A DNA stretch of 64,000 nucleotides from Porodaedalea pini (lineage: Eukaryota; Basidiomycota; Agaricomycetes; Hymenochaetales; Hymenochaetaceae): the NCBI GenBank assembly GCA_002794775.1, contig NBAY01000121.1, forward strand, positions 16,187 through 80,186, in the 5' to 3' direction. Position numbers and translations under genes: made by a program. The first letter of the stretch is position 1; every line of letters starts with the position of its first letter. The notes beneath the pieces were generated by a model. That model was not told the origin of the DNA. It did not search any database and saw nothing but the letters and a program-made list of their open reading frames with translations. Shown here in pieces: positions 5,065 to 53,459 of the stretch.

Positions 5065-5328
5065 GTGTACGATTTTCACTTAGAACCACAGTCTGCTTGT
5101 CGCGACGTCATCGATCGAGGGCACTGTACACTATTTTACAGCACTGGGGAAGTCATGCCATGTACAGCTACTACGGATGCTACAGGGTCAACGGTGAAGA
5201 CTGGGGACTTACAAGTGGCGGACACGTATAATACTTTCGGCACCGCGTATGGCGGCTGGTTTAGCGCGCGATCGGCGTTCCAGGTCCTTGAAACGAATGA
5301 AGGCGCATGCTGCAAGTATGCAGAGTAG
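5065..5328 (+). pseudogene. Class II aldolase C-terminal remnant, copy 1
   Basis: Only the end of a class II aldolase/adducin-type protein is visible: a GGWFSARSAFQVLE segment followed by a TyrAlaGlu terminus. Copies 2-4 keep the preceding domain with the HSHS metal-binding region, but it is missing here. The middle part is out of frame relative to the family. There is no start codon context, so I call it a dead fragment. Confidence 0.6.
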
Positions 5329-5749
5329 AGGCAAAAAAGATATATACATTTGGGGTAACGGTGGTGAATGGTGAATGAAATGTAATATTAAGAATTTTGC
5401 GGGAAACGAGCATACCGTCTTTATGCTAGATTAAAATATGTGGCGTCCTCAGCATAGTTGTTTCCGTTCTTTGTACTCTAGCATGAACGCAAACTCAGTA
5501 TAATATGAGTCATTTGGGCTAAGTTGTATTCTAATTGCTACTGGCGCGCAATCCAAAGCTCGCTCTCTCCTTTATCACTGGCTTATTTGCTTCTTGATCC
5601 ACATACGCATAGTTTCTTTACCGTGCAATTCGTCGCACATAGATGCATCAAAATGCAATGAGCATTTAGTACATAAACGAGACTGTTTGCCTGTATCCAA
5701 ATCCAAACCCGCCAACTGATCAAGCAGCACCACAGAGCACATTTCGACG
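5329..5749 (+). promoter_or_regulatory. Conserved kinase upstream region
   Basis: This 0.4-kb stretch is repeated upstream of all four kinase copies (also about 10430-10802, 21840-22243 and 26200-26602). It shares the tract gcataccgtctttatg and aactcggtataatat-like sequence, then a gap-free run to the ATG. Conservation across four copies suggests it holds the promoter, though duplication alone would also explain it. Confidence 0.4.
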
Positions 5750-32626: not shown

Positions 32627-32796
32627 TCTTATGATAATACTGTTTATGCAACCTATTTACTTATGACTTCACTTGTTTACTCACATGACTATGACTTCCT
32701 ACTTGTTATAGTATGCTATTCAATTGTACTGTATATAAGGACAGGCACTCTCGCCCCTAATCTATAGCTTTGTCCCACTTTTCTGCTCGTCTAAGA
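32627..32796 (+). repeat. Copia 5' LTR
   Basis: This 170-bp LTR has a TATA-like tgtatataagg at about 32731-32741. Its terminal inverted pentamer is TCTTA/TAAGA. It is identical to the 3' LTR by eye. Confidence 0.93.
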
Positions 32797-32807
32797 GGTT
32801 ATGAGCC
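32797..32807 (+). other. Copia primer binding site (initiator tRNA-Met anticodon region)
   Basis: The 11 bases directly after the LTR, ggttatgagcc, are the reverse complement of GGCTCATAACC. That sequence is the anticodon stem-loop of fungal initiator tRNA-Met. This matches the half-tRNA priming known for copia, rather than priming by a tRNA 3' end. Confidence 0.7.
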
Positions 32808-32844
32808 TTGGCTCCCTCCTACTCATTGCACTCCTCACTATTGC

Positions 32845-35800
32845 ATGTCAGACCGTCCTCCTCATTCACCAACACCACCACTACCAACTACTCCTAAACC
32901 AACTACTAGCACTTATCCTTGCACTCGTGCACAAACACAGGCTGAACAACTAGTCGCAACTACTAGCGGCACTACTCAAACTCCTACTCCACCCATATCT
33001 ACTGCCACACCAGCGCAACTTGAGCGCAACTTTGAAACACTACCGCCAATACTAGAGCACGTTACTCCACCTACTGAATCATCAGAAGGCGAACTAACTG
33101 ATCCTACTACAGTGCCTCCTACTCGCACTCAGCGCATTCCCCGCTGCGAATCACCAATAATGTCAGCACTTAAAGCGGGTGAAATAATCAAACTATTTGA
33201 TGGCATCGAACCACTCGACGGTGTCAAGAACTGGAAACTCTGGATATTCCGTATCTTCCAGGCTATCAATGCCACTGGCCACCCAACTCTTATGGAGGCA
33301 GGGCCATCCAATCCAGAAGAAAATGTCATTGCAAATGCCATCTATGCGGGTGTAATCAAAAACATCCCTGACAAAATACTCAGAAACTACTTAGGCGTAA
33401 CTCAAGTACACGTCCTACTTAAACAACTAAAGGCGCGTTACGACATACAAACTACAGTAACTAACGCGTTAAATGAAGGAGCGTTATTCAACGTCCGAGG
33501 CCATGTGTCTCAACTTGACAAAACTTTGGATGAACTCGAACGATGCCACGCTGAACTTTGCGCTCATGGAAAACAACCAGCCGACTCAACTTACTTGGCA
33601 GCAATAACCGCGGCGATACCACCGCAATATAAATATGTCATAACTCAACTCGAACTTCAAATAAACGCCGTGAACGAATACAATAAGAATAATGACGACC
33701 ACGAGGATCTTGTTCTTACTCCGAACCGACTTATCCAAGAAACTCGTCAGGCCTTTGCAAACTGGAGCGCGGCAAATACTCGAAGAAATCCAATCGCCGC
33801 CACGCACCCTTACCAAAGCGAGGCTACTCACCCCTACTTTAGAGGGCGAGGCGGACACACTCGAGGTCGCGGCCGAGGCCGTGGCCGATTTGGAACTTAT
33901 AGAGGCCGAGGACGCGGCCACAGAGGATACTCAAATAACTCCGATAACTCGAACTCAGGGAACTCTAATCCCTTTGTTAAATGTTATAACTGTAACAACT
34001 ACGGGCATCAATCACCTGACTGCCCTCAGCCGTGGACTCAGAAGACTAAAGATGCCATGGCAAAGAAAGGGATTCAGGAGCATGCGAAACCTCCGACCAC
34101 TGCCCACTCGCATCAGGCGAGCACGTCGAACACGGCAAACGTACCTGCGACCGCTTCCACTTCCACTGCAGTCGCCCAAGCACACCAAGCGACAAATGTT
34201 GAAATGCCCAACTTCCCACAGACGCCACCATTCACTGCGACGATAACTGAAATAACCGATGACGTCACTATGCAGTTCGACAATGAATCTGCACTTTTCG
34301 ACTTCTTACACGACGATCACTACATGGATGCTATTGAAAACTTTGAGGCGAATCATGTAAGCGCCACAGCCATTTACTTAAAAGAAAATTATGCTAATAA
34401 ACTTTATCATACTATGGATATTATTGATTCTGGCGCCACTCTTCACTTAACTCCTTATTTTAACCGACTTACTAATGTCAAACAAACTGACCCAATCTCT
34501 GTTATAACCGCTAACTCACAAACTTTTATTACTTCAACTATAGGGATTTTAACTGTTGAGATCCCGAATGGTGATACTGTAAGCACCATCACTATTAAAG
34601 ATGTTTATTATGCTAAAGAAATGCACATGACGCTACTAAGCCAGTCTAAACTTTGCGCAGAAGGATATGAATTTATTTATAAAGGAAATTTGTGTACAAT
34701 AAAGGCACCTAGCGGTGAAATATGCGGTCAAATTCAATGTAAAAATAACCTGTACTCTATATTAAAACATTATCAAATGAGCGCTGTGAAATCAATCACT
34801 TTGTTTGAACTTCATAAGAAACTCGGTCACTTAAGTTATACTTACCTCAAATGGCTACTTAAAAATCATCCTGAATCAATTCATTACAAAATTACTGACT
34901 CAACTGAAACTCAATGTCGTGTTTGTGTCGAAGCAAATATTAAAAGAAATGTTATACCTAAAACTCAAACTTCTGAATTAGCTAAAAACTTTGGCGATCA
35001 TTTTCATATGGATATTTGGGGACCTGCGCCGACAACTGCTATTGGAAATTTTAAATATTTGTTAACTTTAGTCGACGACTGTACTAGATGGGTCCAAATG
35101 AGTTTACTTAAAACTAAAGCGGATGGTTATACTGCTTACATCAAATGGGCTACTTTATTATCAACTCAATATGGAATTAAAATTAAAACACTACAATCCG
35201 ATAATGATACTGTCTTTTTATCAAATGACTTTCAACTCTTTTTAGACAGTCAAGGAACTGTGCGAAAACTAACTGTACATGATACTCCACAACAAAATGG
35301 TGTAGCTGAGCGAACTCATCAAACAATACTAAATCAAGTTAGATCAAACTTACTAGGACATAAATTACCGGACAAGCTCTGGGGAGAAGCCGTTAACTAC
35401 TCAACCTTTATACATAATAGAACACCTAAAGCGGCAATTAACTTTGTCTCTCCATACTTTAAACGATTCAATAAAGCTTATATTTTTGATAACTTACATG
35501 AATTTGGCACTCATGACATTTTCAGAGAAGAAAATACTAATAAACTAACTCCTAAAGGATCCTACGGCCGATGGCTATGTTGGGATGAAGAAAGTAAAGG
35601 ACATAGAATTTATCATGATCAGAAAATAACTGTTGAAAGAAATGTCCAATTTCTCGAAGTTGCACCTTCTCGAATTGAAGGGGAGCAAACTGATACCCCA
35701 CTAGAAAACAATCAAAACAACCCTACTGAAACTACTGAACCAAGAAGATCAGAGCGACAAAGAAAACCAACTAAATGTTCTAGAGGACTAGATTATACTG

Positions 35801-37302
35801 AAGAACTTAACCTTGCCATTTACTTAACTGAATTCAATGAATTTAATAATGAACAACTTGGCGACCCCATCACTTTTCAACAAGCAATTAAGCGACCAGA
35901 TGCACTTAGATGGGCTAAAGCCATGAAAGATGAAATTGAAACATTAAAAGAAAGACAAACTTGGGAATACGTTTACCCACCTACTAATGCAAATATCATT
36001 GGCACTAAATTTGTTTACAAAACTAAACGGTTAGCCGATGGCCGAATTGACAAATACAAAGCAAGACTAGTTGTGCAAGGATATGCGCAACAGGAAGGAA
36101 TTGATTTTTACTCAGATGACCTATTTGCACCAGTAGCACGACTTAGTACTGTGCGAACTATACTTTCCTGGGCAGCAACTAATGACTATGAAATACATCA
36201 AATAGATATCAAATCAGCCTACTTGTATGGTGAACTAGAAGACGGTGAAGAAATTTACATCAAACCACCACCAGGATATAATAAACTATTACCTGACTTA
36301 AAACCTGGTCAAATACTAAAATTAAAGAAAGCACTATATGGATTAAAACAAGCAGGAAGATGTTGGTACAAGAAACTAATGTCAATCTTAACCAAAATAG
36401 GACTAACTAGATCAGATAATGACAACGCAGTCTTTTTCAAAACAGAAAATAATAAAACTATACTAGTATTATTTGTACATGTCGATGACATTACAATAGC
36501 TGCGAAATCAACTAAACTATTAACTGAACTAAAAACTCAAATTAGAAATGAAGTTACTTACACTGATGGAAATGAAATTCATTGGTTACTTGGAATTGAA
36601 ATCAAACGTAACCGTCAAACTAAAACTATAGTGTTAAAACAACAAAATTATATTGAAACTATTATCAAACGCTATAACTTAGAAAATGCTAAACTAAAGA
36701 ATTCTCCTATGGAGCCAGAGAGACAATTATCAACTGATGACGCACCAGCCGATGATGAAGAACTTACTTACATGGAAAAGGTACCTTATATGAACATGGT
36801 TGGAGCACTGCGATATGCAGCAGACTGTACCAGGCCAGATATTGCCTATACATGTGGAATACTCGCGAGATATTTAACTAACCCTGGTATTAAACATTTT
36901 GATGCCGCAAAACAATGTTTTCAATACTTACACTCAACTAAGGACTATTGGCTCATACTCGGTGGAACTGAAAATACTCAACTTACTGGATACACTGACT
37001 CTGATGGAATGACAACTGAAGGGCATAAAGCCATATCCGGATACTTCTTTAAACTTGGCAATTCAATAACATCATGGTCAAGCAAGAGACAAACTTTAGT
37101 GTCATTAGCCGTAGCTGAAGCTGAACTTATTGCACTAGCTTATGCGACTCAGGAGGCTATTTGGCTAAAAAGACTTGTGAATGAGGTTCTACAGGCTTCG
37201 TTTACGCCTACTACAATTTTTACTGATAATCAAGCCATTATTACTATGGCAACTGATCCTGAGCGTAAATATTCTCAAAGAACTAAACATATTGACATAT
37301 GA
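32845..37302 (+). CDS. Copia Gag-Pol polyprotein with premature stop in RNase H
   Basis: The frame runs from ATG 32845 to TGA 37300-37302, about 1,485 residues. Gag contains an RGG-rich RNA-binding stretch and a CCHC knuckle (CYNCNNYGHQSPDC). The protease has DSGATLH. The integrase has an HHCC region (HKKLGH...CRVC) and DDE residues in HMDIWGP, LQSDNDT and NGVAERTHQ. The RT active site is FVHVDDI and the RNase H shows GYTDSDG. The TGA falls right after KHIDI, where copia elements usually have Arg. The next 49 codons stay open to a second TGA at 37450-37452, so one C-to-T change in a CGA codon would explain it. Expression of full RNase H would need readthrough. Confidence 0.93.
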   Translation: MSDRPPHSPTPPLPTTPKPTTSTYPCTRAQTQAEQLVATTSGTTQTPTPPISTATPAQLERNFETLPPILEHVTPPTESSEGELTDPTTVPPTRTQRIPRCESPIMSALKAGEIIKLFDGIEPLDGVKNWKLWIFRIFQAINATGHPTLMEAGPSNPEENVIANAIYAGVIKNIPDKILRNYLGVTQVHVLLKQLKARYDIQTTVTNALNEGALFNVRGHVSQLDKTLDELERCHAELCAHGKQPADSTYLAAITAAIPPQYKYVITQLELQINAVNEYNKNNDDHEDLVLTPNRLIQETRQAFANWSAANTRRNPIAATHPYQSEATHPYFRGRGGHTRGRGRGRGRFGTYRGRGRGHRGYSNNSDNSNSGNSNPFVKCYNCNNYGHQSPDCPQPWTQKTKDAMAKKGIQEHAKPPTTAHSHQASTSNTANVPATASTSTAVAQAHQATNVEMPNFPQTPPFTATITEITDDVTMQFDNESALFDFLHDDHYMDAIENFEANHVSATAIYLKENYANKLYHTMDIIDSGATLHLTPYFNRLTNVKQTDPISVITANSQTFITSTIGILTVEIPNGDTVSTITIKDVYYAKEMHMTLLSQSKLCAEGYEFIYKGNLCTIKAPSGEICGQIQCKNNLYSILKHYQMSAVKSITLFELHKKLGHLSYTYLKWLLKNHPESIHYKITDSTETQCRVCVEANIKRNVIPKTQTSELAKNFGDHFHMDIWGPAPTTAIGNFKYLLTLVDDCTRWVQMSLLKTKADGYTAYIKWATLLSTQYGIKIKTLQSDNDTVFLSNDFQLFLDSQGTVRKLTVHDTPQQNGVAERTHQTILNQVRSNLLGHKLPDKLWGEAVNYSTFIHNRTPKAAINFVSPYFKRFNKAYIFDNLHEFGTHDIFREENTNKLTPKGSYGRWLCWDEESKGHRIYHDQKITVERNVQFLEVAPSRIEGEQTDTPLENNQNNPTETTEPRRSERQRKPTKCSRGLDYTEELNLAIYLTEFNEFNNEQLGDPITFQQAIKRPDALRWAKAMKDEIETLKERQTWEYVYPPTNANIIGTKFVYKTKRLADGRIDKYKARLVVQGYAQQEGIDFYSDDLFAPVARLSTVRTILSWAATNDYEIHQIDIKSAYLYGELEDGEEIYIKPPPGYNKLLPDLKPGQILKLKKALYGLKQAGRCWYKKLMSILTKIGLTRSDNDNAVFFKTENNKTILVLFVHVDDITIAAKSTKLLTELKTQIRNEVTYTDGNEIHWLLGIEIKRNRQTKTIVLKQQNYIETIIKRYNLENAKLKNSPMEPERQLSTDDAPADDEELTYMEKVPYMNMVGALRYAADCTRPDIAYTCGILARYLTNPGIKHFDAAKQCFQYLHSTKDYWLILGGTENTQLTGYTDSDGMTTEGHKAISGYFFKLGNSITSWSSKRQTLVSLAVAEAELIALAYATQEAIWLKRLVNEVLQASFTPTTIFTDNQAIITMATDPERKYSQRTKHIDI

Positions 37303-39060: not shown

Positions 39061-39883
39061 GCGCCGATCCTCTTGGTGGTGCAGTGGAAGCACAAAATCT
39101 TTGGTTTCTGCAAGCTTCATACTACTCCACATGTACTTGAAAATCACAAAAAAACCATTATATATATTATAATTTGAGTGAGACTCAAATGATTCAAAGA
39201 TAGATTGAGGGACTCTTCAGAAGTTCATTATCTATCAAAATACAAAAGTTTCTGTCACTAAATTGGCCATATCTCAACATATTAAACATTTCAGGAAATT
39301 TCATCAATTAAATTCCAGATTATCTACCAAAAAGCAAGTCTAGTTAATGATACTAGTCAAGATCTTGTTGTGCTGAATTGCAAGAGAGCTGGAAGGAGAC
39401 AAAGGGTACTGTCACAAAACACATTTAGTAATTCTCTAGGTGCCTTCCATCTACCAGAGAATACACACCTTATACTATCACTCCACAGTACACATCTTTC
39501 ATTTTCATAAGTCATCAGTTACAACCTGACTTTGCACCTTTTTGTACACTTGTGTACAGTCCAATGTAGTGCTCAATTTGTGCTTAGGTGTCAGCCATCC
39601 TATTATACCACTCTCTTTCTTTATTATAATAGACAGATACAAGCCCTGTATACACATTCAAACACTTTGTTTCATCAATTTCTATCTTATACTTTATGTT
39701 TTATGCACTGATTCCCACTCTGTCTGATATGCTGAGCACTCCACACTCACCTACGCACCAGCCAGCCCCTACAGCCAAGGAAAGGGAATCCCGACTTGGA
39801 CTAGAATCCCAAAGTAGGATGTGGACCAATCCCACCGGTGGCCAACACCTCTCCCCCAACAAAAGTGAAAGTCCTGCAGGATT
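39061..39883. other. AT-rich flank left of the palindrome
   Basis: No conserved gene is seen. The last 180 bases hold a Pro/Ser-rich open frame that runs into the palindrome boundary. The heptamer caggatt at 39877-39883 is repeated directly after the right arm. Confidence 0.5.
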
Positions 39884-39949
39884 CACTTCAGGCTACCCCT
39901 CTGAGCAGACCAAGTAGGACTATTCATACACACAACTAATTGACCATTT

Positions 39950-40170
39950 AGGTATTGACCCTGGGCGTGCCCAATCTGCTGGGCACTCCCAGTGGGTGCG
40001 AGTTGGGTGTGCCCAATTTTTTTTACTGTGGGAAAGTTGGGTGCACCCAGATCATTTGGGCACTCCCAACTGGGCCTGCCCAGTTTTTGGGCACCCCCAG
40101 TGGGAGTGCCCTGGGAGTGCCCAGATATGTCACTGTCACTGACTGTCTGGGGGACTTTTGGGCACACCCA
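39950..40170 (+). repeat. Subterminal GGGCACTCCCA repeat cluster, left
   Basis: Many copies of tgggcac, gtgcccaa and ggtgcaccca occur in both orientations within 220 bases, about 70 bp from the arm end. They resemble the core of the minisatellite further in. Such subterminal clusters often serve as transposase binding sites; here that is inference. The mirror copy is at 53166-53386. Confidence 0.7.
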
Positions 40171-40189
40171 ATTTGTTTTTGCCATAAAA

Positions 40190-41065
40190 TCTAGGGGCTT
40201 TATAAATGCTGTATTTTATTGTTTTTAATCCTACAATTTAGTGATCTTGCTATTGTTTAGTTTATGATTCATTAGCTATGTGACTGACCTTTGGTATGAA
40301 TTGAATTTTGGTCAACAGTAGTCTGGGTCAGACAGGAAAGAATGCTGAGCATGCTAGACACACAGGACAAAATGATATTTGTTGCTATTTGAGGGACTAA
40401 GATAATAAAGATAATAGAGATAGTATTGAGCAGTTCTATATACTGTAAGACAAATGGAGAAATAGGGAAATTATACAGCAGTATGAGAGAAATGAAAATA
40501 AATATGAGTCAGCTAAAAGTGTAATGACTACCTAAGAAATCATTAATGGTATTCTAACATTAAACATTGGGAATCAAGCTCTAGCATTCTAACTATATCA
40601 GAGAGATTATATGTCATAGGCTCTATGAGAAGTTCCAACTAGAGTGATATAGCTGCACTGGACACTTAAGTAGAGCTATTTAAAATTAAACAAGTGCAAG
40701 GGTCTGATACATTAGGATCAGTTTGAATGCCTAAGTGGAGTAAAGAGTATAAACTAAGAGAGAAACTGAGATAGAAACATAGAAAGAGTATAAGCCCACT
40801 GGAGCATTCTTATCATTTCTGACATGTTGCTGACCTTCTGAACATCATAACTTGACTTTGAGGTACTAAGCATTTAACACTCTGAGATACACAAAGTATC
40901 AATACAGTGTAAAATCCCAGGATGCAGGGGAAGAGATTCAAAGTTGAAATGAAAGAGAGACTTGAAAGCAATCAGGCTTAAGCTGTGCTTAAATATTAGG
41001 CCTGGACTACTAAGCTTAAAAGATTAGATATGACTAGTTGACTGTATCTAAATCTTTTACAGGTG
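40190..41065. other. AT-rich stretch of left arm
   Basis: No gene is visible; open frames are short. The mirror copy is 52271-53146. Confidence 0.5.
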
Positions 41066-41069
41066 CCTA

Positions 41070-41640
41070 GTTGAGTATACTCAGTATACCCAATTATCTG
41101 GGAGTGCCCAGTTGGGTATGCCCAATTATCTGGGAGTGCCCAGTTGGGTATGCCCAATTATCTGGGGGCACCCAGTTGGGTATGCCCAATTATCTGGGGG
41201 CACCCAGTTGGGTGCTCCCAATTATCCGGGGGGGCCCAGTTGGGTGCACCCAATTATCTGGGGGGGCCCAGTTGGGTGCTCCCAATTATCCGGGGGGGCC
41301 CAGTTGGGTGCTCCCAATTATCCGGGGGGGGCCCAGTTGGGTGCTCCCAATTATCCGGGGGGGGCCCAGTTGGGTGCACCCAATTATCTGGGGGGGCCCA
41401 GTTGGGTGCTCCCAATTATCCAGGGGGGCCCAGTTGGGTGCACCCAATTATCTGGGGGGGCCCAGTTGGGTGCACCCAATTATCCGGGGGGGCCTAGTTG
41501 GGTGCACCCAATTATCTGGGGGGGCCTAGTTGGGTGCACCCAATTATCTGGGGGGGCCTAGTTGGGTGCTCCCAATTATCTGGGGGGGCCTAGTTGGGTG
41601 CTCCCAATTATCTGGGGGTGCCCAGTTGGGTACATCCAAA
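41070..41640 (+). repeat. About 18-copy, roughly 32-bp minisatellite, left arm
   Basis: The unit is gggcccagttgggtgcaccc followed by aattatctgggg. The unit contains the perfect palindrome ttgggtgcacccaa and G runs of five to eight. Variant units (tatgccc, tgctccc, tgcaccc) are intermixed. The open frames through it only reflect the periodicity. The mirror copy is 51696-52266. Confidence 0.9.
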
Positions 41641-41994
41641 TGTCTGAGAGTACCTAGCTATATAAGGTCTTTTTTAATTCCTGCCTTAGAATCATTTTTT
41701 AAAATGCAAAAAATCATTATGTCATGAAAATTAAATAAGTCTAGAATGGAAGCCTTAATAATTCTATGGATCAATTTCTCAATCATTTTGTTCTAGACTC
41801 TGCATCTTGGCAGCTTCGCTCTGAAGACAAATCAATACACTGTAATCATTGACCCAACACCAGAGCTGCCATGAGATCAAAGACAAGCAAGCATAAAACT
41901 TCATTTTGAAGAGATTACCACCCTGCTCCTCTGTATCTTCTCAATTGCATGCTCAAGGCACTCAGTTGCTGCATACTGCAAACTCAAAATAAGT

Positions 41995-43335
41995 ATAGGG
42001 TTGACGAGGAATACATGTTGATGCGTGTCGCTCAGATTGAACAGGACACTGCTCATCAAGAAAAGGATGCAATGGCAGTGTATGGCATGCTTTCCGGTTC
42101 AGAGCCTCATATTTCTCCTCTTCGTCATGCTCTTGCTGTCTTTGGCCTTACGCCAGATGACATTGACGTTCTTTCCATCCACGGCACCAGCACCAAGGCC
42201 AACGAAAAGAATGAAACACAGATCTGGAACGATGTTTTCTCTACGCTTGGTCGTACACTTGGAAATGCAGTTCCAATTATGGCACAGAAGAGCTGATGTG
42301 GTCATTCAAAGGGTGGATCTGCTGCTTGGCAACTCGCCGGTCTGATTCAGACCGTTGGTTCAGGTATCGTTCCCGGAAACCGAAACGCAGAGTAAGTCAT
42401 TTTTGGTTCCTCTATAGTGCCGATCTCATTTCTTTCTTGTTTAGTAACGTCGATGCCGATTTCTGCAAGCATGAGTATCTTATGTTGCCTTCGAAAACTA
42501 TCCATACAGATGGCATCTGTTCCGGTATCATGGTATGTTGCTCCATTATCTTTCACATACTAGTCCCGATCTCAACATCTTACAGTCGTCTTTCGGCTTC
42601 AGCCAAGTTGGCGGCACCGTACTCGTCATCCACCCTCGCTTCCTTCTCGGCGCTGTCGAGCCCGCACAGTACGAGGGGTACAAGCTCCACAACCGCGAGC
42701 GTGCATTGGCATGCTACAAAGCCATGACCTCCATGATGACCATAAACTCACTGGTTGAGATCAAGGACGCACCTCCGTATTCGAGCGAGCTGGAAGTTCC
42801 TGTTCTCCTCAACTCTCTGGCACGTGCGGCGCTTGACGATAAGACCGGCAGCTACTCGCTCCCGAAAAAGTTTGCCACAAAGGCGACATTTAATGTTTCG
42901 AATGTCGAGGCTGCTGCCAAGGCCCTTGCAACTGGTAAAGGCTCTCCTGGTGTTGGCGTCGATCATGGTAAGTCTAATTCATATCAATCATCTGAAACTC
43001 ACAGCATACTAATTGGCATTTCGGAGCTCATTTCCGCTGTCCCGTCGTCTAACCCGACTTTCATCTCACGTAACTTTACTGATACGGAGATCGCTTACTG
43101 CCGCTCGCAGCCTTCACCCGCGGCATCGTTTGCTGCGCGCTGGGCTAGCAAGAAAGCGGTCTTCAAGTTATTTGGAGTCGCTTCGAAGGGATCAGCGGCA
43201 GCGATGAAGGACATCGAGATCCTTCCTGATGCATCGGATGTGCCGTCCGTGACGCTTCACGGCGATGCGCTTGCTGCTGCGGATAGTAAGGGAGTCACGC
43301 AGGTGCACGTGAGTCTCAGCCACGTAGCAGAGTGC
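41995..43335 (+). pseudogene. FAS2: FAS2 (fatty acid synthase alpha) 3' fragment, left arm
   Basis: This encodes the end of the ketoacyl-synthase domain (SPLRHALAVFGLTPDD, IHGTSTKANEKNETQIWND, GHSKGGSAAW) and the C-terminal phosphopantetheinyl transferase (FISRNFTDTEIAYCRSQP, FAARWASKKAVFK). At least three introns remain, for example at 42392 and 42533, so DNA rather than mRNA was copied. A TGA at 42294-42296 interrupts KS-GHSKGG. The last family residues are HVSLSH, after which unrelated sequence follows. The intact protein makes long-chain fatty acids in the cytosol; this piece cannot. Confidence 0.9.
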
Positions 43336-43339
43336 CGAC

Positions 43340-43983
43340 TGCAGGACGCTACGTCTCGTGCGTGAATGGCGAGGCGAGTGCGATGCAGCGCGTATGCGAC
43401 GAAGTGCGCAAGCGTATTCGGTATCACTGGTGCTCCTCCTGATCCTGCCGTTGCGGTAACAGGGGAACGCGAGACGACTGTGGTCGAGGACGATGTGGAA
43501 GAGGTGAAGGACGACGGAGGAAGGATCTCGGGGCAGTTGAAGGTATGGCTGACGAAGCGCGCACAGAGCTTGCTGGTGTCTTCGTGCCCGTAGTAAGTGG
43601 CGACTGCCGGTGGGGGTGCTGCCGGCGCGGGGTGGTGCGAGTGGTGTGCGCGCGGGACTGCCGATGACTGTTTTTTTGTCGAACGTTTTCGGCGCGGTCG
43701 GAGGAAAAAAAACGCGATAGAGAAAAAGACACCGATCAACAGCCACTCATCACTCAAGTATCAGAGATCGGGGGGAAAGAGGGGGGACGCTTACAGAACT
43801 CGAGGTAGATGCTGCGGCAGCGGCGGACGCAGAAGACGATTTCGCAGGTGGAGGCGGGGCGTACGTCGCGCGGTGCACGCGCCGGAAGGGCGAGTGGTTC
43901 GAGCTGGCACTCGATGATGATATCGAATGCTGATGCGGATGCGGATGGGGGTGGGGATGGCGCGGGGCGTGGACGGTGGCCAT
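43340..43983 (-). pseudogene. Cyclin 5' fragment, left arm
   Basis: Mirror copy of the right-arm fragment described at 49353. It is read on the minus strand from ATG 43981-43983, with one intron. It is truncated within the first cyclin helix after ALHRTRL, near the FAS2 fragment's 3' end. Confidence 0.7.
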
Positions 43984-44289
43984 ATTCGCTGCGGCGGGCT
44001 CTCTGGCTCTGGGCGTTGACGAGCGTCTGTGAGCGTCAAAGGACAGGTGGAGTTGATGCGTGAGAAGAGGTCGCTACGAATGTTTTGATTGGAACGAGAT
44101 CCTTCTCGGACACAACGGTTGCGTCGCGTTCGCCGAAGTGCGCAGTGAGAAAGGCAGATGAGAAAACGGCTGACGTCGATGTTGAGGCGTGTGGAACATT
44201 GGCGGGGGCAGAAGGAAGAGGTGAGGAATGCGTCCCAGGTGAACAGGGCGAGGGAAGTTGAACCGCTCGACGGTTTCGGTGAATGTCGC

Positions 44290-44553
44290 CAGTCCCTCCC
44301 TGCCTGACAATGACGAGAGAGAGGACAGCGACGTTGCGACCGATGATGCAGCCAGGGGCCGGCTTGCACTTTCTCACCAGTGCGGCAGAGACGGTAGCAA
44401 GAGTGACCAGCAGAAAGGAGAAGGCGAGCAGTTAGGAATGAGTACACCCTGCTTCATCGGGAAGTCCTGCTCGTCGTTTCCGCCAGAGACGCGGAAGACG
44501 TAGCCCTTGAACTCATCACCGACCAAGTCGCTGGGGACACCTGGGACATCTTC
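44290..44553 (-). pseudogene. RPS6: 40S ribosomal protein S6 fragment, left arm
   Basis: Mirror copy of the right-arm fragment at 48783. The minus strand reads [29 protein letters not shown], then [12 protein letters not shown] and GCIIGRNVAVLSLVIV in shifted frames. Confidence 0.8.
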
Positions 44554-44570
44554 TTGCCGTGGAAAATGCG

Positions 44571-45667
44571 GTAACGACCACCTCGCTATGAAGCATTTCT
44601 CGGTAGAAGGTCAGCTCGAATTCAAGGCTATTCTCTACATTCCGAAGCGGTGAGTCTCCTTGCTGGCCTTGCTATGAACCTGTTTCTGACGTCTCTTTAG
44701 CGCACCGTTCGACCTCTTTGAGTCCAAGAAGAAGCGTAACAACATTAAGCTCTACGTCCGCCCCGTCTTCATTATGGACGACTGCGAGGATCTCATCCCC
44801 GAGTACCTTAACTTCGTCAAGGGTATCGTCGACTCTGAGGATCTCCCGCTCAACATCTCGCGTGAGACGCTCCAGCAGAACAAGATTCTCAAGGTCATCC
44901 GCAAGAACATCGTGAAGAAGTGCCTCGACCTCATCCAGGAGATCTCGGAGGACAAGGACAACTTCAAGAAGTTCTACGAGGCGTTCGGCAAGAACCTCAA
45001 GCTTGGTATCCACGAGGATGCGCAGAACCGCAGCAAGCTCGCCGAGTTCCTCCGCTTCTACTCGACGAAGTCGACTGAGGAGCAGGTCTCGCTGAAAAAG
45101 GGTACGTGTTCAAGCGGCGGCCCTGTTCCGTATTTTGGTTGCTGACAGCTTACCGCAGACTACATCACGCGGATGCCTGAGATTCAGAAGTCCATCTACT
45201 ACCTCACTGGCGAGTCGCTCAATGCCGTCAAGGACTCTCCCTTCCTTGAGGCTCTCAAGAAGAAGGGCTTCGAGGTACTCCTGCTTGTTGACCCGATCGA
45301 CGAGTACGCCGTCACTTAGTTCAAGGAGTTCGACGGTCACAAGCTCGTGTGCGTGTCGAAGGAGGGTCTGGAGCTCGAGGAGACCGAAGAGGAGAAGGAG
45401 CGCGAGAGTGAGGCCTCGCAGTTCGAGGAGCTCTGCAAGGTCGTCAAGGATGCGCTCGGCGACAAGGTCGAGAAGGTCGTCATCTCGAACCGCGTCACCG
45501 ACTCACCATGTGTGCTCGTCACCGGCCAGTTCGGCTGGTCCGCAAATATGGAGCACTTCATGAAGGCGCAGGCGCTTCGCGACTCGTCAATGTCATCGTA
45601 CATGGCGTCGAAGAAGACGCTTGAGCTTAACCCGCACAACGCGATCATCAAGGTCCTTCGATGTTGA
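44571..45667 (+). pseudogene. HSP90 middle-domain fragment, left arm
   Basis: This codes for the HSP90 middle domain into the C-terminal domain: [84 protein letters not shown] and [19 protein letters not shown]. Introns at about 44651-44699 and 45101-45159 are kept. The ATPase domain and the C-terminal MEEVD end are missing. An in-frame TAG at 45317-45319 replaces the Gln expected in VTQFKEF. The family is an essential cytosolic chaperone; this piece is non-functional. Confidence 0.92.
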
Positions 45668-46508
45668 TCGTCTTTTACTGGCCCATCGCCAGGTCAGCGA
45701 TGTCGACACTTCATGGCCGGTGGTGTCTTGAGGAGGAGCTCGTCGTGTTCTGTCCCTTCAGGCAAGCAAAAAAAATGATGAGAAGTAATTATTAGTATAT
45801 TCAAATAGTTTTTATGATTATTTTTTTTGCTTACCTTGAGTGTGTGGCCGGTGGGACAGCCGTGCTCGTCGTCGATGGTGAAGACGAAACGACGACGACG
45901 CGTTGGTTGTGTTGCCTAATTTGGCCGATCGCCGCGTCTCAAACAAGCAATCAAAGCATTCCGATTCTTTCGGAAATCTCGAAAGTCTCAGCTGTTGGCC
46001 TCAAACAAATTCTACAGATGCGTTTAAAAATACAAAAAAATATGGAATGGTTTTATTATGTATTTATCTCTATCATAGCCAATAATTACGTGTCCAACGC
46101 GTTTTTTTATGGAGTAATAAATACAACAGTAATCTTGACATGCAGCACCAGGCCTCCAGAAGCATACACAAAAGTACAATATACCCTGAAAGGCCTGACA
46201 CCTATTCTATCATGAAGTAAGTGATACATTGTGTATGTATGCAAGGTTTCAAGCCAGTCAGACATGAACTGACTTCATAATAGAGAAGGAGGTGGTTTCA
46301 TAAGATCTTCTGAATCTGAGTGTTTTGTATATCCTGTTCCCACTTTCTACTTTGATGGCACATAAAATATTAAGCATATCCAGAATGGATATGTCTATGT
46401 TTCTGTAAGTTTACAAGTTTCCCTAGCCTCAGTGGTTGGAGCTGGGTGAATTGCAAAACATCGAAAAGCATGGTTTTTAGAAGTTCAGAGAAAGCATATA
46501 TTCATGTT
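45668..46508. other. Inner part of left arm
   Basis: Near 45740-45905 the minus strand shows what could be two exon ends (FTIDDEHGCPTGHTLK) around a 78-nt intron with GT-AG ends, possibly another captured fragment of unknown origin. The rest (45910-46508) is AT-rich without a recognised gene. The mirror copy is 46828-47668. Confidence 0.35.
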
Positions 46509-46827
46509 GTTGCTTTATTCTAAACCTCAGGAAGCTCTATAAAATAAATATTAATACTTTTAATGACTACAATGAATGTAATCAGGTGCTAGATCTCAGA
46601 GTTAGGGGAAAGTTCTGAAGGGGGAGAGAAAATACATGCAAAACTGCTCTGTGTTTCTTGGATTTGTGTCGAGTTTCACAAAGCATGAACTGTATCACCT
46701 CTCATTTCACTCCCAATTCCGAACTTTTCCCTCACCCACAAAACTAAGGACTGGATATCTTTCTTGGAGCATACTTAAATACAAACAACTAATTTTGTTG
46801 AGCTTCTCATACTGTGAACCAACTAAA
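46509..46827. other. 319-bp unique spacer of the palindrome
   Basis: This is the only part of the unit present once. It has no coding potential longer than about 70 codons and no recognisable motif. Pairing stops abruptly at both ends (46508/46828). Confidence 0.8.
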
Positions 46828-47668
46828 AACATGAATATATGCTTTCTCTGAACTTCTAAAAACCATGCTTTTCGATGTTTTGCAATTCACCCAGCTCCAA
46901 CCACTGAGGCTAGGGAAACTTGTAAACTTACAGAAACATAGACATATCCATTCTGGATATGCTTAATATTTTATGTGCCATCAAAGTAGAAAGTGGGAAC
47001 AGGATATACAAAACACTCAGATTCAGAAGATCTTATGAAACCACCTCCTTCTCTATTATGAAGTCAGTTCATGTCTGACTGGCTTGAAACCTTGCATACA
47101 TACACAATGTATCACTTACTTCATGATAGAATAGGTGTCAGGCCTTTCAGGGTATATTGTACTTTTGTGTATGCTTCTGGAGGCCTGGTGCTGCATGTCA
47201 AGATTACTGTTGTATTTATTACTCCATAAAAAAACGCGTTGGACACGTAATTATTGGCTATGATAGAGATAAATACATAATAAAACCATTCCATATTTTT
47301 TTGTATTTTTAAACGCATCTGTAGAATTTGTTTGAGGCCAACAGCTGAGACTTTCGAGATTTCCGAAAGAATCGGAATGCTTTGATTGCTTGTTTGAGAC
47401 GCGGCGATCGGCCAAATTAGGCAACACAACCAACGCGTCGTCGTCGTTTCGTCTTCACCATCGACGACGAGCACGGCTGTCCCACCGGCCACACACTCAA
47501 GGTAAGCAAAAAAAATAATCATAAAAACTATTTGAATATACTAATAATTACTTCTCATCATTTTTTTTGCTTGCCTGAAGGGACAGAACACGACGAGCTC
47601 CTCCTCAAGACACCACCGGCCATGAAGTGTCGACATCGCTGACCTGGCGATGGGCCAGTAAAAGACGA

Positions 47669-48765
47669 TCAACATCGAAGGACCTTGATGATCGCGTTGT
47701 GCGGGTTAAGCTCAAGCGTCTTCTTCGACGCCATGTACGATGACATTGACGAGTCGCGAAGCGCCTGCGCCTTCATGAAGTGCTCCATATTTGCGGACCA
47801 GCCGAACTGGCCGGTGACGAGCACACATGGTGAGTCGGTGACGCGGTTCGAGATGACGACCTTCTCGACCTTGTCGCCGAGCGCATCCTTGACGACCTTG
47901 CAGAGCTCCTCGAACTGCGAGGCCTCACTCTCGCGCTCCTTCTCCTCTTCGGTCTCCTCGAGCTCCAGACCCTCCTTCGACACGCACACGAGCTTGTGAC
48001 CGTCGAACTCCTTGAACTAAGTGACGGCGTACTCGTCGATCGGGTCAACAAGCAGGAGTACCTCGAAGCCCTTCTTCTTGAGAGCCTCAAGGAAGGGAGA
48101 GTCCTTGACGGCATTGAGCGACTCGCCAGTGAGGTAGTAGATGGACTTCTGAATCTCAGGCATCCGCGTGATGTAGTCTGCGGTAAGCTGTCAGCAACCA
48201 AAATACGGAACAGGGCCGCCGCTTGAACACGTACCCTTTTTCAGCGAGACCTGCTCCTCAGTCGACTTCGTCGAGTAGAAGCGGAGGAACTCGGCGAGCT
48301 TGCTGCGGTTCTGCGCATCCTCGTGGATACCAAGCTTGAGGTTCTTGCCGAACGCCTCGTAGAACTTCTTGAAGTTGTCCTTGTCCTCCGAGATCTCCTG
48401 GATGAGGTCGAGGCACTTCTTCACGATGTTCTTGCGGATGACCTTGAGAATCTTGTTCTGCTGGAGCGTCTCACGCGAGATGTTGAGCGGGAGATCCTCA
48501 GAGTCGACGATACCCTTGACGAAGTTAAGGTACTCGGGGATGAGATCCTCGCAGTCGTCCATAATGAAGACGGGGCGGACGTAGAGCTTAATGTTGTTAC
48601 GCTTCTTCTTGGACTCAAAGAGGTCGAACGGTGCGCTAAAGAGACGTCAGAAACAGGTTCATAGCAAGGCCAGCAAGGAGACTCACCGCTTCGGAATGTA
48701 GAGAATAGCCTTGAATTCGAGCTGACCTTCTACCGAGAAATGCTTCATAGCGAGGTGGTCGTTAC
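47669..48765 (-). pseudogene. HSP90 middle-domain fragment, right arm
   Basis: Mirror of 44571-45667 with the same introns and the same stop (48017-48019). Confidence 0.92.
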
Positions 48766-48782
48766 CGCATTTTCCACGGCAA

Positions 48783-49046
48783 GAAGATGTCCCAGGTGTC
48801 CCCAGCGACTTGGTCGGTGATGAGTTCAAGGGCTACGTCTTCCGCGTCTCTGGCGGAAACGACGAGCAGGACTTCCCGATGAAGCAGGGTGTACTCATTC
48901 CTAACTGCTCGCCTTCTCCTTTCTGCTGGTCACTCTTGCTACCGTCTCTGCCGCACTGGTGAGAAAGTGCAAGCCGGCCCCTGGCTGCATCATCGGTCGC
49001 AACGTCGCTGTCCTCTCTCTCGTCATTGTCAGGCAGGGAGGGACTG
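48783..49046 (+). pseudogene. RPS6: 40S ribosomal protein S6 fragment, right arm
   Basis: About 40 residues match RPS6 in one frame: [38 protein letters not shown] shift then gives [18 protein letters not shown] and a further shift gives GCIIGRNVAVLSLVIVRQG. The family reads [10 protein letters not shown]...[29 protein letters not shown], so an internal piece has also been lost. RPS6 is a small-subunit ribosomal protein; only its central part is present here. Confidence 0.8.
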
Positions 49047-49352
49047 GCGACATTCACCGAAACCGTCGAGCGGTTCAACTTCCCTCGCCCTGTTCACCTG
49101 GGACGCATTCCTCACCTCTTCCTTCTGCCCCCGCCAATGTTCCACACGCCTCAACATCGACGTCAGCCGTTTTCTCATCTGCCTTTCTCACTGCGCACTT
49201 CGGCGAACGCGACGCAACCGTTGTGTCCGAGAAGGATCTCGTTCCAATCAAAACATTCGTAGCGACCTCTTCTCACGCATCAACTCCACCTGTCCTTTGA
49301 CGCTCACAGACGCTCGTCAACGCCCAGAGCCAGAGAGCCCGCCGCAGCGAAT

Positions 49353-49990
49353 ATGGCCACCGTCCACGCCCCGCGCCATCCCCACCCCCATCCGCATCCG
49401 CATCAGCATTCGATATCATCATCGAGTGCCAGCTCGAACCACTCGCCCTTCCGGCGCGTGCACCGCGCGACGTACGCCCCGCCTCCACCTGCGAAATCGT
49501 CTTCTGCGTCCGCCGCTGCCGCAGCATCTACCTCGAGTTCTGTAAGCGTCCCCCCTCTTTCCCCCCGATCTCTGATACTTGAGTGATGAGTGGCTGTTGA
49601 TCGGTGTCTTTTTCTCTATCGCGTTTTTTTTCCTCCGACCGCGCCGAAAACGTTCGACAAAAAAACAGTCATCGGCAGTCCCGCGCGCACACCACTCGCA
49701 CCACCCCGCGCCGGCAGCACCCCCACCGGCAGTCGCCACTTACTACGGGCACGAAGACACCAGCAAGCTCTGTGCGCGCTTCGTCAGCCATACCTTCAAC
49801 TGCCCCGAGATCCTTCCTCCGTCGTCCTTCACCTCTTCCACATCGTCCTCGACCACAGTCGTCTCGCGTTCCCCTGTTACCGCAACGGCAGGATCAGGAG
49901 GAGCACCAGTGATACCGAATACGCTTGCGCACTTCGTCGCATACGCGCTGCATCGCACTCGCCTCGCCATTCACGCACGAGACGTAGCGT
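49353..49990 (+). pseudogene. Cyclin 5' fragment with leader and intron, right arm
   Basis: The ATG at 49353 opens a His/Ser/Ala-rich N-terminus (ATVHAPRHPHPHPHPH). A GT-AG intron runs from about 49542 to 49669. The second exon reads SSAVPRAHHS..., then LARFVSH-like CARFVSHTFNCPEILPP and LAHFVAYALHRTRL, which matches the start of a Pcl/Pho80-type cyclin box. The match ends there and the rest of the cyclin box is absent. The upstream bases look like a 5' leader. Cyclins of this type partner a CDK; the fragment could be transcribed but could not fold as a cyclin. Confidence 0.7.
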
Positions 49991-50000
49991 CCTGCAGTCG

Positions 50001-51341
50001 GCACTCTGCTACGTGGCTGAGACTCACGTGCACCTGCGTGACTCCCTTACTATCCGCAGCAGCAAGCGCATCGCCGTGAAGCGTCACGGACGGCACATCC
50101 GATGCATCAGGAAGGATCTCGATGTCCTTCATCGCTGCCGCTGATCCCTTCGAAGCGACTCCAAATAACTTGAAGACCGCTTTCTTGCTAGCCCAGCGCG
50201 CAGCAAACGATGCCGCGGGTGAAGGCTGCGAGCGGCAGTAAGCGATCTCCGTATCAGTAAAGTTACGTGAGATGAAAGTCGGGTTAGACGACGGGACAGC
50301 GGAAATGAGCTCCGAAATGCCAATTAGTATGCTGTGAGTTTCAGATGATTGATATGAATTAGACTTACCATGATCGACGCCAACACCAGGAGAGCCTTTA
50401 CCAGTTGCAAGGGCCTTGGCAGCAGCCTCGACATTCGAAACATTAAATGTCGCCTTTGTGGCAAACTTTTTCGGGAGCGAGTAGCTGCCGGTCTTATCGT
50501 CAAGCGCCGCACGTGCCAGAGAGTTGAGGAGAACAGGAACTTCCAGCTCGCTCGAATACGGAGGTGCGTCCTTGATCTCAACCAGTGAGTTTATGGTCAT
50601 CATGGAGGTCATGGCTTTGTAGCATGCCAATGCACGCTCGCGGTTGTGGAGCTTGTACCCCTCGTACTGTGCGGGCTCGACAGCGCCGAGAAGGAAGCGA
50701 GGGTGGATGACGAGTACGGTGCCGCCAACTTGGCTGAAGCCGAAAGACGACTGTAAGATGTTGAGATCGGGACTAGTATGTGAAAGATAATGGAGCAACA
50801 TACCATGATACCGGAACAGATGCCATCTGTATGGATAGTTTTCGAAGGCAACATAAGATACTCATGCTTGCAGAAATCGGCATCGACGTTACTAAACAAG
50901 AAAGAAATGAGATCGGCACTATAGAGGAACCAAAAATGACTTACTCTGCGTTTCGGTTTCCGGGAACGATACCTGAACCAACGGTCTGAATCAGACCGGC
51001 GAGTTGCCAAGCAGCAGATCCACCCTTTGAATGACCACATCAGCTCTTCTGTGCCATAATTGGAACTGCATTTCCAAGTGTACGACCAAGCGTAGAGAAA
51101 ACATCGTTCCAGATCTGTGTTTCATTCTTTTCGTTGGCCTTGGTGCTGGTGCCGTGGATGGAAAGAACGTCAATGTCATCTGGCGTAAGGCCAAAGACAG
51201 CAAGAGCATGACGAAGAGGAGAAATATGAGGCTCTGAACCGGAAAGCATGCCATACACTGCCATTGCATCCTTTTCTTGATGAGCAGTGTCCTGTTCAAT
51301 CTGAGCGACACGCATCAACATGTATTCCTCGTCAACCCTAT
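50001..51341 (-). pseudogene. FAS2: FAS2 3' fragment, right arm
   Basis: Mirror of 41995-43335, with the same stop at 51040-51042 and the same introns. Confidence 0.9.
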
Positions 51342-51695
51342 ACTTATTTTGAGTTTGCAGTATGCAGCAACTGAGTGCCTTGAGCATGCAATTGAGAAGA
51401 TACAGAGGAGCAGGGTGGTAATCTCTTCAAAATGAAGTTTTATGCTTGCTTGTCTTTGATCTCATGGCAGCTCTGGTGTTGGGTCAATGATTACAGTGTA
51501 TTGATTTGTCTTCAGAGCGAAGCTGCCAAGATGCAGAGTCTAGAACAAAATGATTGAGAAATTGATCCATAGAATTATTAAGGCTTCCATTCTAGACTTA
51601 TTTAATTTTCATGACATAATGATTTTTTGCATTTTAAAAAATGATTCTAAGGCAGGAATTAAAAAAGACCTTATATAGCTAGGTACTCTCAGACA

Positions 51696-52266
51696 TTTGG
51701 ATGTACCCAACTGGGCACCCCCAGATAATTGGGAGCACCCAACTAGGCCCCCCCAGATAATTGGGAGCACCCAACTAGGCCCCCCCAGATAATTGGGTGC
51801 ACCCAACTAGGCCCCCCCAGATAATTGGGTGCACCCAACTAGGCCCCCCCGGATAATTGGGTGCACCCAACTGGGCCCCCCCAGATAATTGGGTGCACCC
51901 AACTGGGCCCCCCTGGATAATTGGGAGCACCCAACTGGGCCCCCCCAGATAATTGGGTGCACCCAACTGGGCCCCCCCCGGATAATTGGGAGCACCCAAC
52001 TGGGCCCCCCCCGGATAATTGGGAGCACCCAACTGGGCCCCCCCGGATAATTGGGAGCACCCAACTGGGCCCCCCCAGATAATTGGGTGCACCCAACTGG
52101 GCCCCCCCGGATAATTGGGAGCACCCAACTGGGTGCCCCCAGATAATTGGGCATACCCAACTGGGTGCCCCCAGATAATTGGGCATACCCAACTGGGCAC
52201 TCCCAGATAATTGGGCATACCCAACTGGGCACTCCCAGATAATTGGGTATACTGAGTATACTCAAC
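51696..52266 (-). repeat. Minisatellite, right arm
   Basis: Mirror of 41070-41640, with the same number and order of variant units. Confidence 0.9.
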
Positions 52267-53165
52267 TAGGCACCTGTAAAAGATTTAGATACAGTCAACT
52301 AGTCATATCTAATCTTTTAAGCTTAGTAGTCCAGGCCTAATATTTAAGCACAGCTTAAGCCTGATTGCTTTCAAGTCTCTCTTTCATTTCAACTTTGAAT
52401 CTCTTCCCCTGCATCCTGGGATTTTACACTGTATTGATACTTTGTGTATCTCAGAGTGTTAAATGCTTAGTACCTCAAAGTCAAGTTATGATGTTCAGAA
52501 GGTCAGCAACATGTCAGAAATGATAAGAATGCTCCAGTGGGCTTATACTCTTTCTATGTTTCTATCTCAGTTTCTCTCTTAGTTTATACTCTTTACTCCA
52601 CTTAGGCATTCAAACTGATCCTAATGTATCAGACCCTTGCACTTGTTTAATTTTAAATAGCTCTACTTAAGTGTCCAGTGCAGCTATATCACTCTAGTTG
52701 GAACTTCTCATAGAGCCTATGACATATAATCTCTCTGATATAGTTAGAATGCTAGAGCTTGATTCCCAATGTTTAATGTTAGAATACCATTAATGATTTC
52801 TTAGGTAGTCATTACACTTTTAGCTGACTCATATTTATTTTCATTTCTCTCATACTGCTGTATAATTTCCCTATTTCTCCATTTGTCTTACAGTATATAG
52901 AACTGCTCAATACTATCTCTATTATCTTTATTATCTTAGTCCCTCAAATAGCAACAAATATCATTTTGTCCTGTGTGTCTAGCATGCTCAGCATTCTTTC
53001 CTGTCTGACCCAGACTACTGTTGACCAAAATTCAATTCATACCAAAGGTCAGTCACATAGCTAATGAATCATAAACTAAACAATAGCAAGATCACTAAAT
53101 TGTAGGATTAAAAACAATAAAATACAGCATTTATAAAGCCCCTAGATTTTATGGCAAAAACAAAT

Positions 53166-53386
53166 TGGGTGTGCCCAAAAGTCCCCCAGACAGTCAGTGA
53201 CAGTGACATATCTGGGCACTCCCAGGGCACTCCCACTGGGGGTGCCCAAAAACTGGGCAGGCCCAGTTGGGAGTGCCCAAATGATCTGGGTGCACCCAAC
53301 TTTCCCACAGTAAAAAAAATTGGGCACACCCAACTCGCACCCACTGGGAGTGCCCAGCAGATTGGGCACGCCCAGGGTCAATACCT
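53166..53386 (-). repeat. Subterminal GGGCACTCCCA repeat cluster, right
   Basis: Mirror of 39950-40170, near the outer end of the right arm. Confidence 0.7.
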
Positions 53387-53459
53387 AAATGGTCAATTAG
53401 TTGTGTGTATGAATAGTCCTACTTGGTCTGCTCAGAGGGGTAGCCTGAAGTGCAGGATT

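Follow-up and report, generated by a model that had tools for sequence, protein, structure and literature searches.

Palindromes that are both long and perfect tend to be unstable and are seldom found. Gene-capturing DNA transposons, such as Pack-MULEs, carry pieces of host genes, introns included, in non-autonomous elements. Among fungal transposons, excerpts of the published description give the Cryptococcus element KDZ1 a length of about 11 kb, inverted repeats of 241 bp and duplications of 8 bp (PMC12810828). Target duplications are 7 bp in Kyakuja and 8 bp in Zisupton, and the excerpted text describes two Kyakuja families as having no inverted repeats (PMC12730594). Copy 112 of Galileo in D. 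willistoni is 9,021 bp long and has inverted repeats of 4,246 and 4,680 bp, identical target duplications and, as far as the excerpt goes, no transposase segment (PMC4168063). Primate X-chromosome palindromes have arms that are >99% identical through gene conversion, according to extracts of a study of them (PMC8981503).

The window analyzed here is a stretch of 64,000 nucleotides from the basidiomycete Porodaedalea pini (contig NBAY01000121.1, below C121).

The palindromic unit and its insertion site

The first-pass annotation of the window had described a palindrome whose 6,625-bp arms pair base for base around a 319-bp spacer, with CAGGATT outside both ends. All of these properties were reproduced on the sequence (Table 1): position x pairs with 93336-x, and the two arms have 0 mismatches. 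The minisatellite has about 17 units in each arm and is identical between them, in agreement with the observation that it shows no length difference. With 6,625-bp arms, a 32-bp minisatellite inside them and only 319 bp in the middle, the element has the form of a foldback transposon. The unit had also been said to lack a transposase. Accordingly, only one of the five arm ORFs scanned against Pfam has a match, which is to ACPS and derives from the FAS2 piece. We found no KDZ transposase gene belonging to the element, and none of the genome-wide KDZ profile matches is on contig C121.

Table 1. Features of the palindromic element, in window positions
Feature	Position	Strand	Basis or remark
Left target-site duplication CAGGATT	39877-39883	+	Single copy at C70 empty site
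Left arm, 6,625 bp	39884-46508	+	0 mismatches vs right arm
Terminal signature CACTTCAGGCTACCCCTCTGAGCA, left arm	39884-39907	+	Terminus pattern search of genome
32-bp minisatellite, left arm, 17.4 units	41088-41646	+	TRF
Captured host FAS2 fragment, left arm (arm 2115-3440)	41998-43323	+	95.2% to C9:1083515-1084840; Pfam ACPS
Captured host Hsp90 fragment, left arm (arm 4693-5774)	44576-45657	+	95.3% to C3 parent gene
Spacer, 319 bp	46509-46827	.	Homologues at 40/40 places scored
Right arm, 6,625 bp	46828-53452	-	Exact reverse complement of left arm
Hsp90 fragment, right-arm copy	47679-48760	-	Mirror of 44576-45657
FAS2 fragment, right-arm copy	50013-51338	-	Mirror of 41998-43323
32-bp minisatellite, right arm, 16.9 units as cut by TRF	51705-52247	-	TRF
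Terminal signature, right arm (C121:69615-69638)	53429-53452	-	Terminus pattern search
Right target-site duplication CAGGATT	53453-53459	+	Identical heptamer to 39877-39883

The palindrome is an inserted element. When the unit and one heptamer are removed, the joined flanks match C70:184742-185061 over 320/320 bases with 2 mismatches. The empty site, which the first-pass annotation had suggested looking for in other strains, is present on another contig of the same genome, with a single CAGGATT. Collinearity of this contig with the window extends over 4.9 kb (99.1%) on one side and 5.0 kb (99.6%) on the other, which is the whole extent of the sequence compared. Flanks were joined for 12 copies of the family described below, and the four that were searched against the genome (window, C3, C46 and C20) all matched contiguously. 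Identical ends and target duplications recur at many loci and, together with the empty site, bear out the proposal of one inserted element. Four of the six reading frames are open across the rejoined junction, as had been noted (62, 68, 93 and 116 codons; the remaining two 17 and 6), but this point is weak because no gene was identified there. The empty site is also consistent with a very recent insertion.

Pieces of two host genes are present in both arms, each about 95% identical to a parent elsewhere in the genome. The FAS2 piece aligns with its parent on C9 over 1,326 bp without gaps and with introns kept, while the alignment of the Hsp90 piece with its parent on C3 has 5 gap openings. FAS2 with a phosphopantetheinyl-transferase domain is a fungal feature. 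A fungal origin of the window also agrees with the KDZ/CxC1 families described below and with Mycena capillaripes, the single organism named in a list of 120 homologues. One subfamily has FAS2, whereas in another this position of the arm is occupied by a different module, in each case in both arms.

The family and its relation to KDZ transposons

Members of this family form no fewer than 38 inverted pairs in the same genome (53.3 Mb). Its spacer is present in at least 40 copies; all 40 places scored, from 52 candidates, are homologous. Each of the 11 copies read over its full length is palindromic, and the arms, at approximately 6.2-7.1 kb, make up nearly the whole element. Allowing for up to 3 mismatches, the 24-bp terminus was located at 65 sites, compared with 0 for a reversed control pattern. 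Perfect target duplications of 7-8 bp were seen in 9 of 13 copies checked, including two larger KDZ relatives. Among the first 10 copies compared (window counted), seven have perfect 7-8 bp duplications, two (C46 and C20) have duplications matching at 6/7 bp and one has none; no target duplication was found at C25 or C105. The search for further copies that had been recommended thus revealed many loci with different flanks and their own target duplications. The C46 insertion has an empty counterpart at 99%, despite its imperfect duplication. Because of this counterpart, imperfect duplications such as those at C46 and C20 are a weak argument for age, and we dropped decayed duplications as proof of it (Fisher test, p 3e-6). 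The C3 copy has a centre that differs from the rest, with 4.0 kb between its arms. The left arm of C19 is interrupted by a Gypsy element, and two contigs, C119 and C168, start within a family member.

Two larger relatives with the window element's ends, at C28:3533-25584 and C2:501266-530822, contain KDZ and CxC1 domains. The 24-bp end of the C28 element is identical to that of the window element, and the two are 95-97% identical over about 230 bp; the end of the C2 element has 3 mismatches. The inverted repeats of these relatives measure 4.0 kb (C28) and 2.4 kb (C2), and both have 8/8 target duplications. KDZ profile matches in the genome number 77. Given these two relatives, which have the same ends and code for KDZ and CxC1 domains, the class of the window element is known, and its 7-bp duplication lies within the 7-8 bp of KDZ transposons. 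The earlier statement that it fits no element class is thus not upheld. On sequence grounds, a non-autonomous KDZ transposon in foldback form fits best; we file it as a non-autonomous member only, because no KDZ match lies inside it. Two other transposase sources were considered and rejected. Plavaka (PF18759) has 64 matches in the genome, none of which is inside the C28 or C2 element, and the 4.0-kb centre of C3 has no blastn match to the compared parts of these elements.

Similarity of the arms and its possible causes

Changes specific to one copy tend to occur in both of its arms. In C120, C29b and C35, 33 ungapped copy-private sites are in both arms (20 of them outside the minisatellite), 10 are in one arm and 1 is other, which is why we regard the arms as evolving together. 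Another 14 "arm-shared" sites were dropped from this count because they are confined to the last 45 columns and represent the inverted spacer. The total of 292 two-arm sites was left unused; up to about 245 are at the inner end, in which C3 lacks homology to the other copies. Arm counts exclude C19 because of its Gypsy element, and the C119 copy is incomplete. Site 84, the odd one among these three copies, shows a mixture in C120, while each of the other two is fixed for one or the other base.

These patterns suggest that arm-to-arm gene conversion likely keeps the arms identical, and changes common to both arms within one copy support the first-pass mention of gene conversion. Homogenization is not always complete, in view of C144, whose arms differ at 40 sites (28 in the outer third, 12 in the middle third and 0 in the inner third). 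The corresponding numbers are 10, 1 and 0 in C105, 0, 4 and 4 in C35, and 7, 2 and 11 in C3. Conversion running uniformly outward from the centre was rejected: the trend is visible in C144 and C105 and absent in C35, C3 and C119. The flanks of C168 share 998/1,000 bases with those of C120, but the C168 spacer is inverted (146/147 differing sites). A switch falls between positions 94 and 2423 of the arm, as expected from one arm-arm crossover. The C168 contig ends inside the element, with a 0.9-kb stump of the second arm that is 98% identical to the first (9 mismatches, 9 gap openings). The inverted spacer could be the assembler's choice, 6-kb arms being hard to phase.

We consider it probable that the window element is a non-autonomous, KDZ-kind foldback transposon that is cut and pasted by its relatives' KDZ transposase and whose arms are kept identical by conversion. 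The larger relatives would supply the predicted transposase in trans. The palindrome may have formed once, given a spacer that is homologous across subfamilies, C3 excepted; with its different centre, C3 lends no support to a single origin. Later changes, captured gene pieces included, would be copied from arm to arm by recombination, and occasional arm-arm crossovers would invert the spacer. A giant foldback transposon mobilized in trans, which had been offered as one option, is accordingly the best fit to the shared ends, duplications, empty site and KDZ-encoding relatives, although the movement in trans is itself inferred.

A different account of the identical arms is that the second is rebuilt on the first at each transposition, by copying of a folded strand or hairpin, so that every new copy is born perfect. 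No one-arm difference is common to two insertions among C120, C29b and C35, and among the 9 copies measured whose two arms are both homologous to those of the window element, 3 (window included) have 0 arm substitutions, as rebuilding would predict. However, C144 has a perfect 8-bp duplication despite its unlike arms, of which the left is nearest to C25 and the right to C46. Transposition of an element whose arms differ therefore seems possible, unless the outer arms of C144 were converted by other copies after insertion. To our knowledge, no such copying step has been described for KDZ elements or for other transposons that move by cut and paste. We judge this account unlikely. If it were true, a host gene piece caught by one arm would be doubled at once. 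It is also conceivable that the palindromes are simply young and their arms alike without any homogenization. The 99% empty counterparts of the window and C46 insertions agree with youth. Yet C121, C46 and C25, in each of which the two arms show 0 substitutions (4 gap openings in C46), differ from one another at 86-112 sites (94, 112 and 86). Moreover, youth alone would not place the same private change in both arms unless the palindrome had arisen separately in every copy, which conflicts with the shared spacer. Youth alone was already disfavoured and appears improbable.

The remaining alternatives concern the assembly and the superfamily. One arm might have been doubled by a hairpin or chimeric read, an option raised previously, and the identical window arms and the two contigs starting inside copies could be read in this way. 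Such an artefact is very unlikely given that 38 pairs or more occupy separate loci, which differ in flanks, arm sequences and target duplications, the duplications being direct and lying outside both ends; given also the arm-arm differences in 8 of 9 other copies measured (C46 by gaps only), and the empty collinear site. Galileo likewise has 7-bp target duplications and long inverted repeats in the excerpted account (PMC4168063), which could suggest a foldback element of the P superfamily; with KDZ and CxC1 domains encoded by two relatives that share the element's ends, there is hardly any chance of this.

Comparison with known systems

A transposon family has spread dozens of long palindromes through one genome. 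It is a natural replicated system for studying arm identity, the doubling of captured genes and the origin of foldback transposons. Should the arms be transcribed, window-type copies would be ready-made hairpins against host FAS2 and Hsp90. By title or abstract start, the open-access literature searched contains no palindromic or gene-capturing KDZ elements.

The family resembles fungal KDZ transposons (Kyakuja, Dileera and Zisupton; Cryptococcus KDZ1-3) in its 7-8 bp duplications and KDZ/CxC1 relatives, and its CA..TG ends are like those in the excerpted account of Kyakuja. Unlike these transposons, the window element has arms that fill nearly all of it, no KDZ gene, and host pieces in both arms. 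Galileo copy 112, a Drosophila element of the P superfamily, is similar, as excerpted, in that inverted repeats make up nearly the whole element, there is no transposase and target duplications are present. However, its repeats are unequal and its transposase class is different by the published account, whereas the window arms are equal and contain host genes. The difference from Pack-MULEs is that the gene pieces of the window element are inside the inverted repeats, so there are two per element. The near-identical arms are shared with primate X-chromosome palindromes, going by the extracts cited above. Those palindromes are fixed chromosomal structures, while the family described here is mobile and multicopy.

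Insertion and family membership

The first-pass annotation had described a near-perfect palindrome, and its two arms (39884-46508 and 46828-53452) indeed pair with 0 mismatches around a 319-bp spacer, with CAGGATT outside both ends. Chance is out of the question as its origin. The palindrome is an insertion, because its flanks, joined over a single CAGGATT, match another contig of the genome, C70 (320/320 bases aligned, 2 mismatches). C70 and the window are collinear for ~5 kb on each side at identities of 99.1% and 99.6%, and C70 probably represents a segmental duplicate or the second haplotype. We joined the flanks of 12 elements and searched with those of the window and of the copies on contigs C46, C20 and C3; contiguous matches were found for all three other copies searched. 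The C46 flanks match C19:96923-97242 at 99%, and the C20 flanks match three places at 94%. The C3 flanks have at least 39 matches, where joined-flank scoring covered 40 of 883 candidates, one of the 40 being C70. Since the C3 site lies within a repeated Gypsy gene, its 39 matches represent target copies rather than alleles.

The window palindrome is a member of a family. Copies with the same start, which the annotation had proposed to seek across the genome, are present, many of them in inverted pairs, and most of those checked are flanked by target duplications. A 517-bp terminal query (40 of 138 candidates scored) gave at least 41 matches, 30 of which form 15 inverted pairs that span 10.7-19.2 kb. 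Allowing up to 3 mismatches, the 24-bp terminus has 65 sites, and the reversed control pattern has none. Counted by content, there are at least 38 inverted pairs: at least 20 with a piece of an Hsp90 gene, at least 13 at 99-100% and at least 4 at ~80% with a module that replaces the FAS2 piece in some copies, and C20. All 40 scored candidates for spacer homologues, from 52 in all, match. The pair, terminus-query and spacer counts are lower bounds, and the family counts include some allelic copies (C120 and C168). The Hsp90 pieces listed without an inverted partner are single arms or contig breaks. Module matches without a listed partner are on C168 (a copy truncated by its contig end), C38, C14:143740, C54, C141 and C166.

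Coordinates of features (window positions unless a contig or the arm is named)
Feature	Location	Remarks
Gypsy-type polyprotein with chromodomain	14185-17775	1,196 aa
Tc1/mariner-like transposase	27903-28919	
Copia-type polyprotein	32770-37302	1,510 aa, single open frame
FAS2 piece	arm 2115-3440	contiguous, ungapped; 95.2% to C9 gene; introns kept
Hsp90 piece	arm 4693-5774	95.3% to gene on C3
Hsp90 pieces without listed partner	C129:66523-67576, C179:20825-21530	
Second FAS2-bearing family fragment	C121:1235-3059	contig coordinates, on the window's contig but outside window; three pieces, middle one inverted
KDZ-encoding relative	C28:3533-25584	22,052 bp; inverted repeats 4.0 kb, 98.3%
KDZ-encoding relative	C2:501266-530822	29,557 bp; inverted repeats 2.4 kb, 98.5%

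Several kilobase-scale segments at 5239-29776 (families D3-D20) occur in two to four copies each, 60-99% identical and spaced ~4.4, 5.1, 6.0 and 11.4 kb apart. Unconnected with the palindrome, they form an array or are nested repeats. In a cluster at C50:61983-97119, one Hsp90-type pair is spaced 11 kb apart instead of the usual ~3 kb, with a second end pair at 82633-95945 and an additional end at 97119; these are perhaps nested insertions.

Arms, captured genes and proposed arm-to-arm copying

We read 11 copies in full (the window's, nine others and C105), and all 11 have inverted arms of ~6.2-7.1 kb. The arms of the C3 element are separated by 4.0 kb, and each is unlike the window's over its inner 0.66 kb; this centre has no match to the end parts of the KDZ-encoding relatives. 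One arm of the C19 copy carries a Gypsy element. The FAS2 piece was likely taken up as DNA, because introns are included. The C120 subfamily (C120, C29b, C35 and relatives) has a different module at its exact position, and the inner arm of C105 is 97.6% like the window's while the outer arms differ. In all copies read, such changes in arm content are present in both arms.

Target duplications and arm-to-arm substitutions (C121, window's element; C29b, one copy on C29)
Copy	Target duplication	Substitutions
C121	7/7	0
C46	6/7	0
C25	none	0
C20	6/7	1
C29b	8/8	3
C120	8/8	5
C119 (partial arm)		7
C35	7/7	8
C105	none (by eye)	11
C3	8/8	20
C144	8/8	40
C19	7/7	
C28, C2 (KDZ relatives)	8/8 each (by eye)	

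Between the three copies whose own arms show no substitutions, the differences number 94 (C121-C46), 112 (C121-C25) and 86 (C46-C25) sites. Among the variable ungapped sites of C120, C29b and C35, three of the four subfamily copies fetched, 33 are unique to one copy but found in its two arms alike; 20 of these lie outside the minisatellite. Another 10 sites vary in a single arm, and 1 fits neither pattern. The account needing the fewest events would be that the palindrome arose once and that later changes were copied from arm to arm, which is favoured because the spacer is homologous between subfamilies, C3 excepted.

By its flank (998/1,000), C168 is the same insertion as C120, with the spacer in opposite orientation. 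At its outer sites 4, 84 and 94 it agrees with one arm; at sites 2423 and 6283, and in the spacer, it agrees with the other. One crossover between arms would yield this switched pattern; assembly mis-phasing might also account for it, and the contig end of C168 is of poor quality.

Relation to KDZ transposons and known systems

Profile searches of arm ORFs and of the genome's contigs found no KDZ match inside the window's element. The larger C28 and C2 elements, compared over their end parts, have ends in common with it, and each encodes KDZ and CxC1 domains. The window arm and C28 are alike across the first 230-340 bp, and C28 has a minisatellite related to the arm's at about equal distance from the end. 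Excerpts of published work give target duplications of 7-8 bp for KDZ elements, and 4-8 bp for KDZ2 and KDZ3 (PMC12730594, PMC12810828). Because the ends are common to both, we infer that a KDZ protein moves the palindromes. Ends, target duplications and relatives together place the window's element with the KDZ transposons, as a non-autonomous one without its own KDZ gene. Functionally it resembles a foldback transposon.

We found no report of palindromic or gene-capturing KDZ elements in titles and abstract openings of the open-access literature searched. The nearest structure among the published excerpts examined is a Galileo copy, which PMC4168063 gives as 9 kb with two repeats of 4.2-4.7 kb. 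Arm size, arm-to-arm identity and host genes in both arms distinguish the window's element from the known kinds.
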